This document shows, one piece after another, positions 3,359 to 57,693 of a DNA stretch of 64,000 bases. Made by a program: the position numbers and the translations under genes. Source of the stretch: a virus. The stretch is taken from positions 1-64,000 of IMG/VR virus record IMGVR_UViG_3300020477_001008. The stretch is one strand, 5' to 3'. Under the pieces are notes generated by a model. That model did no database searches. It had not been told where the DNA came from and saw only the letters and a program-made list of their open reading frames with translations. How positions within the stretch are numbered: position 1 is the first letter of the stretch; every line of letters begins with the position of its first letter.

Positions 3359-3823
3359 TTAGTGTTTTGTGTCTTCGTCTTCATCTTCGTAATCACCATC
3401 GATTACGTCGTCTTCGTCGTCGTAGTCAAAGTCATCACCTTCATCATCGAAGTCGTCGTGATCTTCGTCATCATCGCCGTCATCGTATTCAAAGTCGTCT
3501 TCATCATCTGAATCATCTTCGTCATCATCTGAATCATCGTCTTCGTAATCTTCATCATCAGAATCATCGTCTTCGTAATCTTCATCATCTGAATCATCTT
3601 CATCATTTGAATCGTCTTCAAAGTCGTAGTCTTCTGGTAAACAAGCACAAGGATCATCGTAACAATCGTCACAAACTTCATCATCGTTCTCGTCTTCAAA
3701 ATCATCGTCGTAGTCTTCATCGTGTATTGAAGTTAGATCTAAATGTTCGAAAAGCTCTTCTAATTTGCTTTCGATCAAATCTAATCTTTCTTCAATAGAA
3801 TCTAATCTATTCTCGTTGTCCAT
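3359..3823 (-). CDS. Extremely acidic Asp/Glu-repeat protein
   Basis: This 154-aa protein has a helical, coiled-coil-like head (residues 1-30, heptad Leu/Ile in LDSIEERLDLIESKLEELFEHL). A small cysteine patch follows (VCDDCYDDPCAC). From about residue 66 it is almost pure Asp/Glu/Ser/Tyr in imperfect DDSDDEDYED repeats. Such tails act in known proteins as DNA mimics, histone-like chaperones or calcium binders; none can be chosen here. The start has a good GAGAGG site. The opposite-strand ORFs in this repeat are composition artefacts. Confidence 0.8.
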   Translation of the reverse strand: MDNENRLDSIEERLDLIESKLEELFEHLDLTSIHDEDYDDDFEDENDDEVCDDCYDDPCACLPEDYDFEDDSNDEDDSDDEDYEDDDSDDEDYEDDDSDDDEDDSDDEDDFEYDDGDDDEDHDDFDDEGDDFDYDDEDDVIDGDYEDEDEDTKH

Positions 3824-3918: not shown

Positions 3919-4653
3919 TTAAGCTTTAATGAGAAATTTTCTTATGATCCAAGCTGGTAGATCTAGCTCGTACCAACGTTCTTTATTGTCCCAGCTATAG
4001 GGCTTTGCGTGGTGTGTATTGTGTAATCCACTACCTAGGGTAATAAGGTTCACAAATAAGTTGTTCGTGCTTTTATCCGGCGTATTAAACAATCTATAGC
4101 CCCATTTATGACATATACTATTAACAGCACCAGCACTATGGAATGTTACTACAGCAGGTATTGAAATTAAAAATACAGCTATACGCCAATCAATTAAAGC
4201 TAGTATAATGTAACTTGAAAACAATATTTTTAAGTAGTTTTGATGTACAAATTTAATAAAAGGATCTCGTATTAAATCAGCAACATATTTTCTTTCAACA
4301 CTAAATGGTTTCCAAAATGTAGTCCACACTCTCCATAATGATTGATCACCGTGTGGGTCTCCTTCAGCATCAGGTACTTGGTGATGTTTTCTATGTATAC
4401 CACACCATAATACAGGACTACCAAAACAATTAAAAATACTCATTGCAATTAAGAACTTTCTTCTTAATGGTCCTGTTTTGAAACTGTTATGAGCTAGATA
4501 TCTATGTAAAGCAATTTCGCCACCTACTTTACCAAACATAATCCAACCAACAAGTGATAATGCTAACCAACTAAGATCAGCATACACTAATCCTGTTACT
4601 AACATTATGTGATTGAATAATAATATTAATTTTAACTTATATTCGTAGCTCAT
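3919..4653 (-). CDS. Fatty acid (acyl-CoA delta-9 type) desaturase
   Basis: This 244-aa integral membrane di-iron enzyme has the three family histidine boxes: HRYLAH (50-55), HRKHH (87-91) and HNTHH (211-215). Hydrophobic segments lie at about 8-40, 65-85 and 140-175. Family members insert a double bond into acyl chains with O2 and an electron donor, changing membrane fluidity. I chose the ATG at 4653 (MSYEYKL) because AAGG precedes it; the longer frame would run deeper into the upstream gene. It overlaps that gene by 17 nt and is the last gene of the 4-8 kb operon. Confidence 0.88.
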   Translation of the reverse strand: MSYEYKLKLILLFNHIMLVTGLVYADLSWLALSLVGWIMFGKVGGEIALHRYLAHNSFKTGPLRRKFLIAMSIFNCFGSPVLWCGIHRKHHQVPDAEGDPHGDQSLWRVWTTFWKPFSVERKYVADLIRDPFIKFVHQNYLKILFSSYIILALIDWRIAVFLISIPAVVTFHSAGAVNSICHKWGYRLFNTPDKSTNNLFVNLITLGSGLHNTHHAKPYSWDNKERWYELDLPAWIIRKFLIKA

Positions 4654-5302
4654 TTTTGTATACCTTATTTGTAGCATATTTATTTGTACTAGCTTCAATA
4701 AGCTTCTGGTGTGCTGATTCTACTACTTTACCTGCTATAAATCCTACAATACGATCGTCATCAATTCCTTCTTTAACATCAACGCCGTGTGGCTGTGTAC
4801 AATTATTAATTAAAAATGCATCTGTATCTTCTGGTATATTACAAAAATGTTTAGGTTGTTTACTCATATCTTTGCTGTAATCATATTCATTACACATATA
4901 CAAAGTATCTCGTGAACCAGTTACAATAAATCTATATCCAATTGGCTCATTAGACATTTGATGATCTAACATCTCTTGAGTAATTGTCATATGATGTTTG
5001 TATGGTGCTTCGGTTTTATTTCCATCAACGTGAGGTGCAACGTTTCCAGTTGACCTAGCTAGTCTTACATAAAATTTATGTTCAAAAGGAAAGTATGTAT
5101 CTATCCATTCTAATAGCTCAGGATATTTTTGTTTTGCAAAATCGTTCCAAGGTTTCATATCACCTAATGGTTGACTAAAATCTTTTGTTCCTAATAGTGT
5201 TTCTTCTTTCCACCATACGTATTTTTCTGCACCAACAAAGTTATCAATAATCTTTTGTTTGTTAGGTATCGGTGGTATATCTAAGGGTGTGAATACTAGC
5301 AT
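4637..5302 (-). CDS. 2OG-Fe(II) oxygenase-like / Asp-hydroxylase-like protein
   Basis: This 221-aa protein has a candidate iron triad: H91 and D93 in APHVDGN, H172 in TQPHGVD, followed by R184 in DDDRIVGF, a likely 2-oxoglutarate-binding Arg. This order (HxD...H...R) fits the cupin-like dioxygenases, including aspartyl/asparaginyl beta-hydroxylases. The substrate is unknown. It sits between an SDR and a desaturase, so lipid or small-molecule oxidation is plausible. The assignment rests on motif spacing only. Confidence 0.55.
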   Translation of the reverse strand: MLVFTPLDIPPIPNKQKIIDNFVGAEKYVWWKEETLLGTKDFSQPLGDMKPWNDFAKQKYPELLEWIDTYFPFEHKFYVRLARSTGNVAPHVDGNKTEAPYKHHMTITQEMLDHQMSNEPIGYRFIVTGSRDTLYMCNEYDYSKDMSKQPKHFCNIPEDTDAFLINNCTQPHGVDVKEGIDDDRIVGFIAGKVVESAHQKLIEASTNKYATNKVYKNELRI

Positions 5303-5311
5303 TGTTCTCTC

Positions 5312-5854
5312 CTATTTCCAATCTGCTTTTGCACTTAATACTAATGATTTTATTTCTTGCTCTTGATCTATTATCCAATTAATTGTATCTATTACTGTTT
5401 TAAATGTTAGTTTAGGACCTTTGTAATCTTTATTAAATTCTGTTTCAACGTGACCCAATGCAAGGTTAGTTATTTTAACTCTTCTACCTTCAATGTCTTG
5501 TTGTAATATTTCTACTGCCGAATGTACAGCCGCTTTTTCTACAGGATACATTCTATGAACTACTTGCCAAGCAGTTTGAGGAACAGCATCAGTTCCAATG
5601 TTTATAATTAATTTTCCTTTGCTATATTGCCAATCTTGATATAGTTCGTTTAACATATTAACTTGAGAAAATCTATCGTGTGCATTATTAATGAACACAT
5701 CACAGTCTTGAACTTTTTTTATTATTTCCATTCTATGGAATATATCATTGATGTTATGTCCATTATCTCTACTAAAGCCAACTATCTCGTGACCTAAGCC
5801 ATCATAGATTGCTTTACCTATGCCTGATGTGTGTCCTGTAATGGCTACCTTCAT
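5312..5854 (-). CDS. Short-chain dehydrogenase/reductase (SDR)
   Basis: This 180-aa protein is shorter than the usual 250 aa. It has the nucleotide-binding TGHTSGIG (residues 6-13), the NNA motif (56-58) and a catalytic YxxxK (Y103, K107), so it should be a working NAD(P)-dependent oxidoreductase. A Ser of the catalytic triad is not obvious upstream of Tyr103; IGTD occupies that place. The gene overlaps the glutaredoxin gene by ATGA and precedes the oxygenase-like gene by 9 nt. Confidence 0.75.
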   Translation of the reverse strand: MKVAITGHTSGIGKAIYDGLGHEIVGFSRDNGHNINDIFHRMEIIKKVQDCDVFINNAHDRFSQVNMLNELYQDWQYSKGKLIINIGTDAVPQTAWQVVHRMYPVEKAAVHSAVEILQQDIEGRRVKITNLALGHVETEFNKDYKGPKLTFKTVIDTINWIIDQEQEIKSLVLSAKADWK

Positions 5855-6243
5855 TTTTTATTCTTATCTGGTAAGCCTCTTTGTTGAACTAAATGTTTAT
5901 CTAATGCATCTGCTGGAAAACCTGTTATGGGTTTTGGTTCTTCTAGCATTGAAGCTAAAGATCCATCTCCATACATTTCTCTAACAATATCAGCACCACC
6001 AACAAACTCTTTATTGATATAAAGTTGTGGTATAGTTGGCCAATCACTAAAAGTTTTTATTTCTTCCCTTAGATTACCATTAGTATCATCTAAAACATTT
6101 ACATCTTGAAAGTCTGTTTCAAGTTTACCTAATATTTTACAAACTAATCCAGAGAATCCACATTGTGGAAAGTCTTTAGTACCTTTCATAAAAAGTACTA
6201 CCTTGTTTTCGTCTATAATCTTTTGTATTTCTTCGTTTGTCAT
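5851..6243 (-). CDS. grxD: Monothiol glutaredoxin (Grx4/GrxD type, CGFS)
   Basis: This 130-aa protein has FMKGTKDFPQCGFS with the CGFS active site at residues 28-31, then WPTIPQLYI (cis-Pro) and FVGGADIV, all typical of monothiol glutaredoxins. These bind glutathione-coordinated [2Fe-2S] clusters and deliver them to iron-sulfur proteins. The ATG at 6243 is preceded by AAGGAA and overlaps the upstream stop (TAATG); the in-frame TTG at 6249 is less likely. A C-terminal extension of about 20 residues goes beyond the usual domain. A link to the many Fe-S radical SAM proteins in this phage is possible. Confidence 0.9.
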   Translation of the reverse strand: MTNEEIQKIIDENKVVLFMKGTKDFPQCGFSGLVCKILGKLETDFQDVNVLDDTNGNLREEIKTFSDWPTIPQLYINKEFVGGADIVREMYGDGSLASMLEEPKPITGFPADALDKHLVQQRGLPDKNKK

Positions 6244-6617
6244 TAGCAATTCCTTCCTGGAAATAACATATCCGGGTACATACCTGGTCCTGGGTATGGT
6301 CCTTTATCAGGATCTTCATTAACCCAATTATTCATATTGGGATATTTTAATTTAAAAATAACAGCTTGTTCCTTGTTGTCAAATACCAAAGCTAATTTTC
6401 CTTCTTCTAACCAGTGATCAATTATTGGTGCCTGATGCTTTTCAAGATAGTTCCAAACATCGTCCATAAAGTATCTGTCTGTTAGCACAGGCATTGGTCT
6501 ATCTTTGCCATCTGGTACAATAACAACTGGTGCATTAATTCTTACTACTCTATCTTTTAATTTTTTATATTTCTTTTGCTTGTATTTAACGTTTTTCATT
6601 GTGTGTATTAATTTCAT
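6243..6617 (-). CDS. Hypothetical protein, 124 aa
   Basis: It starts at the ATG overlapping the stop of the 54-aa gene (TAATG), giving MKLIHTMKNVKYKQKKYKK. A basic head is followed by a mixed domain with DRYFMDDVWNYLEKHQAPIIDHWLEEGKL split by turns, and a Pro/Gly-rich end (PYPGPGMYPDML). No family is recognised. A TTG start 24 nt upstream is also possible. It is translationally coupled to the glutaredoxin gene. Confidence 0.6.
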   Translation of the reverse strand: MKLIHTMKNVKYKQKKYKKLKDRVVRINAPVVIVPDGKDRPMPVLTDRYFMDDVWNYLEKHQAPIIDHWLEEGKLALVFDNKEQAVIFKLKYPNMNNWVNEDPDKGPYPGPGMYPDMLFPGRNC

Positions 6618-9023: not shown

Positions 9024-9031
9024 TATAAATA
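9024..9031 (+). promoter_or_regulatory. T4-like late promoter, exact octamer
   Basis: TATAAATA lies exactly 5 nt before the ATG of the cysteine-rich gene. In T4 the octamer spans -13 to -6, so the predicted +1 is the A of that ATG. Confidence 0.6.
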
Positions 9032-9036
9032 ATAAT

Positions 9037-9180
9037 ATGCAACAGGAAGAAAACTTAATCGAATGTGTATGTAATTGCGGTTGCGAACATCATTGCGAAG
9101 AACCTTGTACAGAGTGTTTGAAATGCGATGATTGTGATTGTCAATGTGGATGCCAATGTGGCCCAGAGGAAGACGAATAG
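9037..9180 (+). CDS. Metallothionein-like cysteine-rich protein, 47 aa
   Basis: This 47-aa protein contains 13 cysteines and two adjacent histidines, in CxC, CxxC and CxxxC patterns (CVCNCGCEHHCEEPC, then CTECLKCDDCDCQCGCQC). The ends are acidic. The density and the CxC pattern are those of metallothioneins, which bind clusters of Zn, Cu or Cd through thiolates; the His pair recalls bacterial ones. No homology is claimed. There is no Shine-Dalgarno. The start lies 5 nt after a late-promoter octamer, so the mRNA may be leaderless. It precedes the cold-shock gene. Confidence 0.75.
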   Translation: MQQEENLIECVCNCGCEHHCEEPCTECLKCDDCDCQCGCQCGPEEDE

Positions 9181-11978: not shown

Positions 11979-12215
11979 TTATTCTGAATAATCCGGAAGA
12001 GGGCCACCATACTTCTTACCTTTGACTGTTTTATGGCCCACAGTCTTTCTTTTACCATCTAGCTTGTGTTCACGATCCGAATCACGTCTACGCAATCCTT
12101 TTGATCTACAGCTTGATAACCAGCTGGCAGGTAGCTCTGAATCAGGCTTACCACTCTTACACACTTTGGTAGGGGCTGGTCCTATATTGTCTGTTATGAT
12201 GTCTGACACTTTCAT
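11979..12215 (-). CDS. Conserved-looking basic phage protein, 78 aa
   Basis: MKVSDIITDNIGPAPTKVC is followed by SELPASWLSSCRSKGLRRRD and a Lys/Gly-rich tail (GHKTVKGKKYGGPLPDYSE). The ELPASWLxSCRxxGxRxRDS pattern looks familiar from marine phage hypothetical proteins, but I cannot name a family. The ATG lies exactly 5 nt after a TATAAATA octamer, with no Shine-Dalgarno. The gene is enclosed by 44-nt elements 2 and 3. Confidence 0.65.
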   Translation of the reverse strand: MKVSDIITDNIGPAPTKVCKSGKPDSELPASWLSSCRSKGLRRRDSDREHKLDGKRKTVGHKTVKGKKYGGPLPDYSE

Positions 12216-43662: not shown

Positions 43663-43914
43663 TTAAGTCTTCAATATTACGTGATGTTTTTTTGGTTTAA
43701 CTCTAGGTTTGTATTTTTTAGTTAACAAATCTTTAGCTTTCTTTTCCAGCTTACTAAATCTACAATTGAATAATTTTCTTGAACCTTTACTAGTGACTAT
43801 AACTGGTTGATTGTGTTCATCTAATTCAATTGATTTAACTTTAGCCACAACGTTACGAAAGCGTCCCACCTCGATATAATCTCCAACTTTAATTTCTACT
43901 TTATAACTTTTCAT
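43663..43914 (-). CDS. Small SH3/KOW-like protein, 83 aa
   Basis: VGDYIEVGRFRNVVAKVKSI is followed by ELDEHNQPVIVTSKGSRKLF and a very basic tail (KKYKPRVKPKKHH). The GDYIEVGRFRN...GxRKLF pattern is familiar from short hypothetical proteins of marine T4-like phages and fits a small nucleic-acid-binding barrel. It overlaps the end of pepA. Confidence 0.6.
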   Translation of the reverse strand: MKSYKVEIKVGDYIEVGRFRNVVAKVKSIELDEHNQPVIVTSKGSRKLFNCRFSKLEKKAKDLLTKKYKPRVKPKKHHVILKT

Positions 43915-45409
43915 TATGTATCCATTTATTTAATAATTGTACACCCCAACCTGTAGCACCACCTGATGCTGTCATTGAACCTTTATCATTCCAAGTAACA
44001 CCTGCAATATCTAAATGAGCCCACGGTGTATCATTAACAAATCTTTGCAAAAATTGTGCCGCTGTTGTTGAACTTGCTTCACCACCTTTACCTACATTGT
44101 GCATATCTGCAATAGTTGAATCAACATATTTGTCGTATCTTTCACCTAGTGGATCACAAGGTAAACGCCAAAGTTTTTCATTAACTTCTTTTCCAGCTTT
44201 TAATAGTTGATCACTTAATTCATCATTGTTTGAAAATAATCCACCAAGTTGATCTCCTAACGCAATTGAAATAGCACCTGTGAGTGTTGCTAGATTAACC
44301 ATAGCTGATGGTTTATATTTGTCTTGTGTATACCATAAGCAATCAGCTAATACTACTCTACCTTCAGCATCTGTATTATCAATTTCAATAGTTTGTCCAC
44401 TTAATGATTTGATAACGTCACCTGGTTTATATGCATTACTTGATACCATATTTTCTACTAGTCCAATAACGCCTACAGCATTTACTTTTGATTTACGCAT
44501 AGCTAATGACATCATTGTACCAACAACTACTGCTGATCCACCCATATCATATTTCATATCTTTTAAACCTCTAGATGGTTTAATTGAATAGCCACCTGTA
44601 TCAAAACATACACCTTTACCAACTAACGCAATTGGTTTTGAATCTCCACCGTTCATCCATTCCATTACAACTACTTTGGATTCTCTAGCACTACCTTGTC
44701 CTACTGACAATAATGCTCTCATACCTATATCTTCTAATTCTTTTTCACCAAATACTTTTATGTTTAATCCTGTGTCTACTGCCATTGCTGTAACTCTATC
44801 TGCATATGATTGTGGATATAAAATATTAGATGGTTCTGAAATTAAATCTTTTGTAAAAAATATACTTTGAGCTATTGCTTTTTTATCTTGAAATAATTTA
44901 TTTGCAGACTCTTCATTGTCATCTTGAATAACTAAATCAAAATTTGTATATTTAGGAACTTTATCACCTGTATAATATTTGTTGAAGTTATATGTTTTTA
45001 GCATCATACCAAATGCAATATTAACTCCCATAGTATCAGCATAAATGGCTACCTTGCCTTTTGTTCCTCTGCTTTGTAATAAGCTATATATTTGTCCACC
45101 TAAGTCTTTACATTTATTTTCATCTCTTGATTCTGAAAAAGAATTAGGATTTAAAATTAATTTTTTTAAATCACCTAAACTAATAATCAATGCTTCATTG
45201 CTGTTTAATTTATTTGTAGTAACAAAAAATCCTGATCCAAAGTCTCCTTTGTAATCATTATTAGTAACAGTATTAGTAATTGCACCTTCTGTTAATTCGT
45301 CAACTCTTTTTGCTGACTCTGATAATATAAATTCTTTTTCTTTTTTAGATATGAAATGTATTTCACAACTTGTTTTTTCTTCTATTGTTTTTTTAAATTC
45401 TATATTCAT
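43901..45409 (-). CDS. pepA: Leucyl aminopeptidase (M17, PepA family)
   Basis: This 502-aa protein starts at ATG 45409 after GAAGGAAA. It keeps the two-metal centre and catalytic residues: K265, D270 (VGKGVCFDTGG), K277, D288 (KYDMGG), and D347/E349/R351 (NTDAEGR). Length equals that of cellular PepA. These enzymes remove N-terminal residues from peptides, and E. coli PepA also binds DNA as a regulator. A full-length copy in a phage is unusual. It follows the SET-domain gene by 1 nt. Confidence 0.93.
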   Translation of the reverse strand: MNIEFKKTIEEKTSCEIHFISKKEKEFILSESAKRVDELTEGAITNTVTNNDYKGDFGSGFFVTTNKLNSNEALIISLGDLKKLILNPNSFSESRDENKCKDLGGQIYSLLQSRGTKGKVAIYADTMGVNIAFGMMLKTYNFNKYYTGDKVPKYTNFDLVIQDDNEESANKLFQDKKAIAQSIFFTKDLISEPSNILYPQSYADRVTAMAVDTGLNIKVFGEKELEDIGMRALLSVGQGSARESKVVVMEWMNGGDSKPIALVGKGVCFDTGGYSIKPSRGLKDMKYDMGGSAVVVGTMMSLAMRKSKVNAVGVIGLVENMVSSNAYKPGDVIKSLSGQTIEIDNTDAEGRVVLADCLWYTQDKYKPSAMVNLATLTGAISIALGDQLGGLFSNNDELSDQLLKAGKEVNEKLWRLPCDPLGERYDKYVDSTIADMHNVGKGGEASSTTAAQFLQRFVNDTPWAHLDIAGVTWNDKGSMTASGGATGWGVQLLNKWIHNEKL

Positions 45410-45410
45410 A

Positions 45411-45731
45411 TTAATTTCCTTCTTTATCGAAATCAGCATACATTGTATACTTTGCTGTTAATTCTTCGCCTGCTTTAATTTTTTTAATAGTACACAAATA
45501 ACGAACAGGTAATTGATGCCAAAAGCCTTTTAAGTTTATACAATTAGGTGTATCTGAATGATTATAAAAAGCACCTAAGGCAGTTCTAATAGCACCGTGT
45601 GGAAAGTTTTTGTTTTCAATATGTACAATACCTAATACAACTTCTTTATCAAAATCTTTTGTAGCAAACAAGCCTAAGCCTTGCACTTTAGATTCTTTAA
45701 TTGTTAAGCCATCTGGTAAAGGTTTATACAT
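45411..45731 (-). CDS. SET-domain protein (lysine methyltransferase-like)
   Basis: This 106-aa protein has GLGLFATKDFDKEVVLG (18-34), FYNHSDTPNCINLK with NHSDTPNC (57-64), and GEELTAKYT (88-96), matching the SET blocks that bind S-adenosylmethionine and place the target lysine. At 106 aa it is a minimal SET domain without pre- or post-SET parts. Such short viral forms can methylate host or viral proteins. The target is unknown. It is tightly linked to pepA. Confidence 0.85.
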   Translation of the reverse strand: MYKPLPDGLTIKESKVQGLGLFATKDFDKEVVLGIVHIENKNFPHGAIRTALGAFYNHSDTPNCINLKGFWHQLPVRYLCTIKKIKAGEELTAKYTMYADFDKEGN

Positions 45732-55160: not shown

Positions 55161-57680
55161 TTATATTACAGTCGCATTCTGACGTGCTAATAACACCCAA
55201 CCAGTAGTCTGATAAAGTAGTGTTACTGTGTCCTCAACATTGTTGAATAATATACTTGTTCCATTTACAAAGTTAGTTGGAGTAACAGTACCGTTACCGC
55301 CGTTCACTTTCATTGAAATTATTTTAATCTGTCCTTCTACTCCATCTGCTAGTGAGTAAGCATCTGTACCAGTTGTTGTTAGTAATGTGACTGTTTCTGC
55401 TAAACTTATTGTTCCTGCTCCACTGATGTTTTGTACACCGTGAACAGTTTTATTAGCTTTTACTGTACCTGCAAAGTAAGCCGTATCATTAGTCTCTGGT
55501 GCGTAAACAGAATATCTGTTTGTGGCTGTACCATTATCAAGAGTTGTTTTAGCTAATACACCAATTAAATTTGTTGTTGATGAACTAGCATCATCCATAC
55601 CGGCTTTTGCCGCTAAACCTACAACATTCGTTGCTGTTAGGTTATGAGTACCTGTTGTAATATCTCCAACTATGTGTCTACCAACCACACCTGATACAGT
55701 AGTAGCCGCACCTGAGTTTTCAAGTGATGTCCAATCATAGTTACCTAACCATCTACCGTCATTGGTTGGATTATCTGCACCAAAACTGTAACCTGCTAAA
55801 TCAAATCTTGTGTCAGTTAATAAACCTTGTTTTCTATTTCCTGAATCAGTATTAGCACCTAAAGTAAGTTTGTTACCTATTGCTTGGTTGTAATGTCTTT
55901 GAGTATTATCTAAACCTGTTGTTGTAAAAAAGCTTTGAGCTTTTTGAATTCTTGCTTGAGTTGTTGCGTTCCAATGTCCTGGTGTTGAACCTATATCAAG
56001 TTTACCAGTTGGTTTTAATTTAAGTTCACCTGTAGCTGTAAGTGTTAGATCTTTTGCTTTGTATTCTGCGTTAATTGGACCATATGCTTCTGCATCAGTA
56101 ATAGGAGATCCAGAATCATATCTTCTTATGTTATCATATGCTCTGTTTTCGTGAACAATCTTACCTCTGGCATCACCAGAGAAAATTGTTACCCTTGCCT
56201 CTGCGTCAGCATTATCTGATCTATCAATAGTTTTAAATTGCCACATTGAACCATTCTTACTTGCATTAACATAAGACTCATACAATGGATGTGAATTATT
56301 GAATAATGAAATATTAAAGCCGGCGTTACCATTTTTATCATAATGGTATGCACTTAGATTGGCACCAGTGTCTACTGACACACCCGCGTTGTTAGTATTT
56401 TGTAAAAATGTTATACCTGATAGTAAATCACTCTTGATTCTAATATCACTAAGGTTAGTAGCACCTGCAATACTTGTTGTAGTATTCAAATAGTCTGCTT
56501 GTAAACTGTCACCAACTGCTGAAGCTGATCTAGTAGATAAACCACCTGATGCGTATGCTGTAAATCCAGTTGTATCTGTTCCACTTAACTCAAATGTATT
56601 TGTTGTTTTGTTTGCAACTTCATATGTGTTAGTGTTAAGTTGAGTCATTCCAACAACGCCAGTGATAGTAACTCTATCACCATTAATCCATTTATGTCCA
56701 TTAGCAGTAACCACACCTGGGTTAGCTTGAGTTACACCTGTTATAGCAATTGAATATGCTCCAGATGTAATACTTGCATTAGAAGTTAAATCTGTTGTAA
56801 TGTTTCTATCTGCATAAGTTGAAAGTTTAATATCACCTGTTGAACTTGTTAATGTGTTTGCTTTTAAGTCACCATCCCAATCGGTACTATCACTTGAGTT
56901 CACCCAAGCACTACCGTTGTATTTTAAAACTTGTCCATTACTAGGTCCTGATATTGTTGTATCAGTCATTCCTGATAATGTTGTTGTAGTTGAATCTGCA
57001 ACTACCCAATTGGTACCATTATATTGTAAAATTTTAGTTGATGCTATACCAGTTGTATCTACATCTGATAATGCATTAATACTTGATGCCGCTATTCTAA
57101 CATCTGCTCTTGCATCTGCTCTAGCATTTGTGAAATATAAATTAGAACCTTCTGTTAGATTTGCTGTTGTTTTAGTTCCTAATCTTGTATCCCATCTTGC
57201 GTCTGTATAGTAAAGGTTCGTACCTTCACTTAAATTTGTTGTTGACTTGGCCGCTAACCTAGTATCAAATCTTGCAGTTGTATAATATAAGTTTGTCGAA
57301 CCTTCTGGCAAATAATCTGTGTTACTAAAATTACCAAATTTAATACTTGTTGTACCGTGATCATAATACATATGATACTTGTCATCTGAGGCACCTGGCG
57401 TAGCTACATCTGATAAATCACCTATTTTTGCTGTTCCAGTTAAGTAGGCTCCTACTCTTGCGTTTGTGTAGTATAAGTTTGTACCTTCTGTTAAATCACT
57501 TGTAGTAAAATTTGTAATTTGATTAGCTTTTACAGAATGTCCTATTTCTAAAAAGTTTAAGTCAACTTCTTCGTGTGTTAGCGGTCTATTAACAATGTCA
57601 ATAGTCGCATCTACATTAGCCTTCAGATTAACTACTGAAGAGCTTGAAGTTGATCGTAATGTAATATTTCCTAGTGCCAT
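55161..57680 (-). CDS. Large tail-fibre-like virion protein with NLYYTxAR repeats
   Basis: This 839-aa protein has four repeats of the form L(T/S/P)EG(T/S)NLYYTNARV between about residues 60 and 185, a hallmark of tail-fibre shafts in marine phages. After a 'LSGMTDTTISGPSNGQVLKY' linker come beta-rich modules and a C-terminal tip (TSILFNNVEDTVTLLYQTTG...NATVI). It probably trimerises and contacts the host surface. An AATAAATA octamer ends 5 nt before the ATG. Confidence 0.78.
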   Translation of the reverse strand: MALGNITLRSTSSSSVVNLKANVDATIDIVNRPLTHEEVDLNFLEIGHSVKANQITNFTTSDLTEGTNLYYTNARVGAYLTGTAKIGDLSDVATPGASDDKYHMYYDHGTTSIKFGNFSNTDYLPEGSTNLYYTTARFDTRLAAKSTTNLSEGTNLYYTDARWDTRLGTKTTANLTEGSNLYFTNARADARADVRIAASSINALSDVDTTGIASTKILQYNGTNWVVADSTTTTLSGMTDTTISGPSNGQVLKYNGSAWVNSSDSTDWDGDLKANTLTSSTGDIKLSTYADRNITTDLTSNASITSGAYSIAITGVTQANPGVVTANGHKWINGDRVTITGVVGMTQLNTNTYEVANKTTNTFELSGTDTTGFTAYASGGLSTRSASAVGDSLQADYLNTTTSIAGATNLSDIRIKSDLLSGITFLQNTNNAGVSVDTGANLSAYHYDKNGNAGFNISLFNNSHPLYESYVNASKNGSMWQFKTIDRSDNADAEARVTIFSGDARGKIVHENRAYDNIRRYDSGSPITDAEAYGPINAEYKAKDLTLTATGELKLKPTGKLDIGSTPGHWNATTQARIQKAQSFFTTTGLDNTQRHYNQAIGNKLTLGANTDSGNRKQGLLTDTRFDLAGYSFGADNPTNDGRWLGNYDWTSLENSGAATTVSGVVGRHIVGDITTGTHNLTATNVVGLAAKAGMDDASSSTTNLIGVLAKTTLDNGTATNRYSVYAPETNDTAYFAGTVKANKTVHGVQNISGAGTISLAETVTLLTTTGTDAYSLADGVEGQIKIISMKVNGGNGTVTPTNFVNGTSILFNNVEDTVTLLYQTTGWVLLARQNATVI

Positions 57681-57685
57681 AACAA

Positions 57686-57693
57686 TATTTATT
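57686..57693 (-). promoter_or_regulatory. Candidate T4-like late promoter
   Basis: AATAAATA on the minus strand, ending exactly 5 nt before the ATG at 57680, and overlapping the stop of the giant virion gene. Confidence 0.5.

Follow-up and report, generated by a model that had tools for sequence, protein, structure and literature searches.

A short cysteine-rich gene in a T4-type virus

The DNA considered here, the window, spans bases 1 to 64,000 of an IMG/VR virus record of 242,646 bases. This record encodes a T4-type gp23 (PF07068, E 3.2e-80), in keeping with the description of the ORF below as a phage gene in a sequence-only reading that singled it out. By DNA the closest cultured gp23 genes, at 68-70% identity (ten rows of 58 records), are those of large T4-type phages infecting Vibrio, Serratia, Erwinia and Pseudomonas. 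The features relevant to this ORF, P0001, are the following.

9037..9180, + strand: P0001, ORF from ATG to TAG, 47 amino acids with 13 Cys and 2 His
9024..9031, + strand: TATAAATA, T4-type late-promoter box, 5 nt before the P0001 ATG
9024-9039: late-box site at P0001
12213-12228, - strand: late-box site
57678-57692, - strand: late-box site
9044..9049, + strand: AGGAAG, Shine-Dalgarno-like string within the P0001 ORF, a weak candidate from sequence and alignment
5851-6249, - strand: glutaredoxin gene (PF00462, E 1.4e-15), 3 kb from P0001 and on the opposite strand

The translation, MQQEENLIECVCNCGCEHHCEEPCTECLKCDDCDCQCGCQCGPEEDE, bears out the 13 cysteines in 47 residues, the pair of histidines and the acidic ends that had drawn attention to it. 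Its core is C-x-C-x-C-G-C-E-H-H-C-x3-C-x2-C-x2-C-x2-C-x-C, and the 5.3 kDa product, of pI 4.05, is 27.7% cysteine and free of Phe, Trp and Tyr. P0001 ranks first in both cysteine count and cysteine fraction among the 448 window ORFs of at least 30 amino acids, and the most cysteines reached by any ORF of 30-80 amino acids in 200 simulated second-order Markov windows was 10, as against its 13. The gene is single-copy in the whole record, and in the same register the antisense of 9037-9180 is interrupted by a stop codon.

Upstream lie a gene for a DUF6552 protein and a 44-amino-acid lipoprotein-like ORF, the ORF preceding P0001 has a weak Rz-like match (E 0.035), and downstream is a cold-shock protein gene (PF00313, E 3.6e-22). 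No metal-resistance or metal-handling gene was found among the neighbors scanned. The glutaredoxin is presumably of the CGFS type, and glutaredoxins of that type are linked to iron-sulfur carriers. Other genes of the window include those for a radical SAM protein (1541-2764, + strand, E 6.4e-8), a fatty acid desaturase (3919-4698, - strand, E 8.2e-14) and a phage-encoded M17 aminopeptidase (43901-45439, - strand, E 3.8e-117), with ORFs between 29 and 51 kb that by eye resemble radical SAM proteins and glycosyltransferases. A 154-amino-acid ORF (3359-3823, - strand) consists mainly of Asp and Glu and has a small patch, CDDCYDDPC, and several neighboring ORFs start with M[KR]..[ED][FLV]-like motifs which we take to recall the capsid-targeting sequence of T4.

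A late-promoter box next to the ATG

The sequence TATAAATA is given as a T4 late-promoter sequence (PMC2984593). It is present three times in the window where 15 occurrences are expected by chance, and the copy ahead of P0001 supports the suggestion that this is a late-type phage gene. There is no Shine-Dalgarno sequence upstream of the P0001 ATG and, because box and ATG are separated by 5 nt, the predicted 5' end of its transcript is at the start codon or close to it. That the spacing is a general feature was apparent from a survey of 1,937 genes encoding 60 or more amino acids and having distinct upstream sequences, in 522 families, from the window and related loci (L050-L129, L134-L233 and L244-L273). 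TAAATA-N5-ATG precedes 114 of the genes, from 34 families, and forms the peak of the distribution, nearly all other spacings of TAAATA being represented by 0-6 families, with 16 at 6 nt and eight at 8 nt. Shine-Dalgarno-like strings accompany only four of these 114 genes, compared with 561 of the 1,823 others. Since transcription in T4 starts about 5 nt past the late box, transcripts from TAAATA-N5-ATG would be leaderless, and on these sequence grounds these marine T4-type phages seem to express their late genes without leaders. T4-type late promoters are themselves already known, as the parts of the literature available to us attest; no paper combining leaderless transcripts with myovirus late promoters was found there.

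Upstream of the members of the family described below, TAAATA-N5-ATG is present in nine of 83 distinct sequences (read off the listing) and a Shine-Dalgarno-like string in 48. The start codon of the relatives aligns with a TTA (9055) inside P0001, and for this reason a non-canonical inner start downstream of AGGAAG was considered; the alignment hints at it faintly. Elsewhere in the window, a 78-amino-acid ORF (11979-12215, - strand) has, like P0001, a late box TAAATA, and at its start and at its end, GGPLPDYSE, it resembles ORFs directly preceding family members at two other loci (L149 and L238).

Relatives and their distribution

Neither P0001 nor eight of its relatives has a credible match in Pfam, NCBIfam or PHROGs, which fits the proposal that so short an ORF escapes filters: in Pfam P0001 is without a match at E 1, and the eight relatives at E 10 gave one chance-level match (E 8.5, to a family other than PF02069). 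Against cultured phages, blastn of P0001 found one chance-like 31-base match and tblastn none, while tblastn of two A-type relatives (defined below) returned none and two weak unrelated matches; these blanks carry little weight because the low-complexity filter may mask such sequences. Nor did a search for relatives by way of the cold-shock neighbor find anything.

The family came to light with the DNA pattern for CxCxCxCxHHC, run on 2.9 million viral contigs. The pattern matched 48 loci, of which the 13 with a plainly similar small ORF were retained as members, the remainder having a chance-like appearance. P0001 shares 52-64% identity with nine relatives in an alignment that has 16 invariant columns, so that lack of conservation of the frame, one of the findings that was to count against the gene, did not materialize. 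With this ten-sequence alignment as query 25 relative loci were found, and with a wider alignment relatives were present in 214 of 252 candidate viral-contig stretches, the best 80 of the 214 being retained. The relatives termed A-type have the core C-x(1,2)-C-x-C-E-x-H-C-x3-C-x2-C-x2-C-x2-C-x-C in a small ORF, as does P0001. When 84,980 species of bacteria and archaea were searched likewise, one of 29 candidate stretches contained a relative. It is on an 8-kb contig of a metagenome-assembled genome (L155, NHCU01000032.1; the contig contains an N and is counted among the 93 A-type loci), and since its neighbors are those of phage loci it is probably a virus contig binned with a bacterial genome. 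Within the reach of the viral-contig and the bacterial and archaeal searches the A-type family is viral.

Sixty-three of the 93 A-type loci have one neighborhood in common, and at L148 the member follows a virion structural gene. In a survey of neighbors at 122 loci, including 28 of the 30 loci of the sister family described below, phmmer revealed an Rz-like spanin gene within 6 kb of the member at six (L145, L264, L265, L271, L272 and L273), some with an endolysin gene also; because of this low number a role in lysis was rejected as a general rule.

In 36 of the 93 A-type loci there is a second, paralogous cysteine-rich domain just upstream, often in an overlapping frame; no second copy is close to P0001 within the window. 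At two loci the two domains are in one ORF.

L142, 2191-2442: two-domain ORF, 83 amino acids with 21 Cys
L163, 2181-2420: two-domain ORF, 79 amino acids with 22 Cys

Both retain TAAATA-N5-ATG ahead of the inner domain, and because the late box persists there a claim of gene fusion has to be softened: the domains may also be made as separate products.

Selection on the cysteine and histidine array

For 54 distinct relatives whose 28-codon cores share one exact spacing (other spacings, that of P0001 included, are outside this set), pN/pS over all 28 codons is 0.058 from 424 close pairs. At the 16 codons left free by the search pattern it is 0.109 and for 23 disjoint pairs it is 0.112, while the two alternative reading frames give 4.6 and 0.9. 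As the 12 pattern codons of this set were fixed by the choice of rows, the invariance of the pattern's Cys and His codons is partly by construction, which does not apply to the free codons. A ratio near one had been named as what would undo the case for a gene; at 0.06-0.11 in relatives the ratio is far from it. A 48-row alignment has seven Cys columns and one His column invariant, and one Gly is conserved at 90% or more. Conservation at several non-cysteine positions (G, E, S, D and P-D) comes close to that of a structured domain. In a tree of the 48 rows P0001 is within the A-type clade with support of 0.84, the short rows carrying little signal. The Cys/His array of the relatives is under purifying selection, and P0001 is a genuine gene of a previously unlabelled family present in many marine viruses.

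A sister family with fewer cysteines, and pelagiphages

No A-type or sister-type motif is near DUF6552 at any of 80 loci (the best 80 of 205 DUF6552 relatives), and a first profile (A2), run against the records for 50 of the loci, matched two. Following one of these two matches led to 30 further loci encoding proteins with 7-9 cysteines and the core CxNCGxxSHCG...IEVCKQCRCxxC, which includes a long loop. A profile of this sister family (A5; 18 of the 30 loci with L237, L242 and L243, duplicates and mis-extended ORFs being left out) matched 15 of the 50 DUF6552-locus records but nothing at E 10 in the window's own record, and P0001 lacks the sister-family pattern. A further alignment, A7, took 38 A-type rows out of 57 distinct. 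Compared by hhalign, the two families gave a probability of 94.6-95.0 and a score of 36.2, while the maximum with 200 column-shuffled controls was 21.3. The two families are thus homologous as judged by profile comparison, the level at which the relationship is discernible. Cysteine number is graded, from 7-9 in the sister family through 10-11 (counted between the two ends of the core) in most A-type relatives to 13 in P0001 and 21-22 in the two-domain ORFs.

Two cultured pelagiphages have members of the sister family, each annotated as a hypothetical protein: Mosig EXVC030M (Mosig_00110, QOI69074.1), with nine cysteines, and HTVC008M (AGE60383.1), with seven. Though their tblastn E-values are weak (0.7-5), both have C-x2-C-G-x3-[HC]-H?-C...C-x2-C-R-C as in the sister family and, unlike P0001, a long loop that separates the two halves. 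In both, a baseplate-wedge gene is three or four genes downstream.

Structure models and known metal-binding proteins

An AlphaFold2 model of P0001 has a mean pLDDT of 63, too low to use, so it yields no cluster geometry; it has no match in BFVD. The model of a sister form (L266) reaches pLDDT 81.5 and consists of a beta-hairpin and a C-terminal helix, a combination common in zinc-bound mini-domains. No match to it was found in the PDB (best E 1.0), but BFVD has two clear ones of 45 and 40 residues, with TM-scores by target of 0.75 and 0.77 and 45-50% identity, and as the lengths agree these are taken to be the Mosig and HTVC008M proteins. Among solved structures the best sequence match to an A4 profile is to the CCHC zinc knuckles of HIV-1 NCp7, over C-x2-C-G-x-E-x-H-x4-C; with 17 residues at E 0.28 or worse this motif resemblance is at chance level, and homology to the retroviral knuckles was rejected.

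On a wide definition metallothioneins are proteins of less than 10 kDa that are very rich in cysteine, have CxC and CxxC arrays and few or no aromatic residues, and in size and composition P0001 falls within this chemical definition. Two further traits of such proteins are the binding of several d10 metal ions in thiolate clusters, which for P0001 is a prediction, and regulation in response to metal, as with smtB-smtA; upstream of P0001 a T4-type late box is the one control element seen. The bacterial metallothioneins BmtA, SmtA and PmtA are likewise small, about a quarter cysteine, with CxC and CxxC arrays and histidine ligands, but the spacing of Cys and His in P0001 is different and its family was virus-only in the present searches. 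No match to the bacterial family PF02069 (Metallothio_Pro) is present in the whole record at E 10, the control search being positive in four of 14 genomes, and by this sequence comparison P0001 is outside that family. The designation metallothionein-like therefore holds in part: the chemistry stands, in that the Cys/His array predicts zinc-thiolate binding, whereas for descent no match to a known metallothionein speaks in its favor. In the account available to us, SmtA binds four zinc ions and a Pseudomonas metallothionein forms Zn3Cys9His or Cd4Cys9His clusters (PMC7387436).

What the protein may do

Tentatively preferred, at a little under an even chance, is that P0001 is a late, phage-specific, metallothionein-like zinc buffer. 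The 13 thiolates, the conserved histidine, the lack of aromatic residues and the acidic make-up predict a zinc-thiolate cluster in which the thiolates and one or two imidazoles would wrap three to four zinc ions. Histidine ligands favor zinc over Cu(I), and it is because the His is conserved that zinc rather than copper is envisaged. In the infected cell the protein would probably take up zinc and hand it on, and shield thiol-reactive metal, and this would coincide with late remodelling of host and phage zinc proteins. Metal binding, the choice of zinc over copper, how many ions are bound, and the buffering role with its timing are all what we infer, and the metal store, metal-toxicity defence and zinc-binding regulator suggested in the sequence-only reading are likewise putative roles. 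Buffering is put first because tandem copies and rising cysteine number suit a capacity function; that no metal-handling gene adjoins P0001 counts against it.

Ranked close behind, and quite possible though short of probable, is a structured zinc mini-domain, an adaptor, a regulator of phage or host machinery or an assembly factor, in which zinc merely holds the fold. The additional cysteines of P0001 would then add a zinc site, and late in infection P0001 would bind another protein or a nucleic acid. Its standing is due to the conserved non-cysteine residues and the ordered sister form; the homology to the 7-9-Cys family, well above the shuffled controls, and the location of members among virion and lysis genes (the 63 A-type loci with a common neighborhood, L148 and the pelagiphages) are also in its favor. 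To judge from the model, 7-9 cysteines and a fairly confident sister fold would be more in keeping with a domain for specific binding than with a store of metal. However, 10-13 cysteines in about 32 residues exceed the need of one or two zinc sites, tandem copies fit capacity or dose, and the sister model is without a similar solved structure.

It is improbable that the cysteines instead cycle between thiol and disulfide in a redox or scavenging protein, protecting late phage proteins or tuning disulfides. The CxC and CxxC arrays and the nearby glutaredoxin gene are compatible with this, but glutaredoxin is absent, by eye, from the recurrent neighbors, and metal ligation is indicated both by the invariant His and by the Gly-Cys-Glu-x-His-Cys core. 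Less probable still is an accessory factor for iron-sulfur assembly. At L149 (7935-9120) and L151 the member immediately precedes phage genes for IscU (NifU_N, E 4.7e-54) and IscA, but the members at these two loci are identical in sequence and, because isc genes adjoin members at just two of 122 loci, the linkage was rejected as general. A spurious or decaying ORF, which the very short length and the lack of a Shine-Dalgarno sequence and of an annotated family might suggest, is the least probable of all and is refuted by the family selection data, with the frame conserved and under strong purifying selection in relatives, a cysteine count beyond chance and a promoter box of its own.

Implications

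A broader possibility, less likely than not, is of a virus-only metallothionein lineage. Marine T4-type phages would have evolved zinc-cluster proteins out of their own zinc mini-domain with 7 cysteines, graded up to 13 cysteines and to tandem pairs with 20 or more, and would make them late, from leaderless transcripts; by this means a phage would capture zinc, buffer it and redistribute it in hosts whose metal supply is very low. We found no report of a phage metallothionein in those parts of the open-access literature that were available. If P0001 does bind zinc in a cluster, it would represent a phage-encoded metallothionein family. Phage genes that are short and cysteine-rich can be widespread while absent from current family libraries and, if the zinc proposal is true, the control of trace metals in infected marine bacteria would be directly testable in the cultured pelagiphages that have the sister form.
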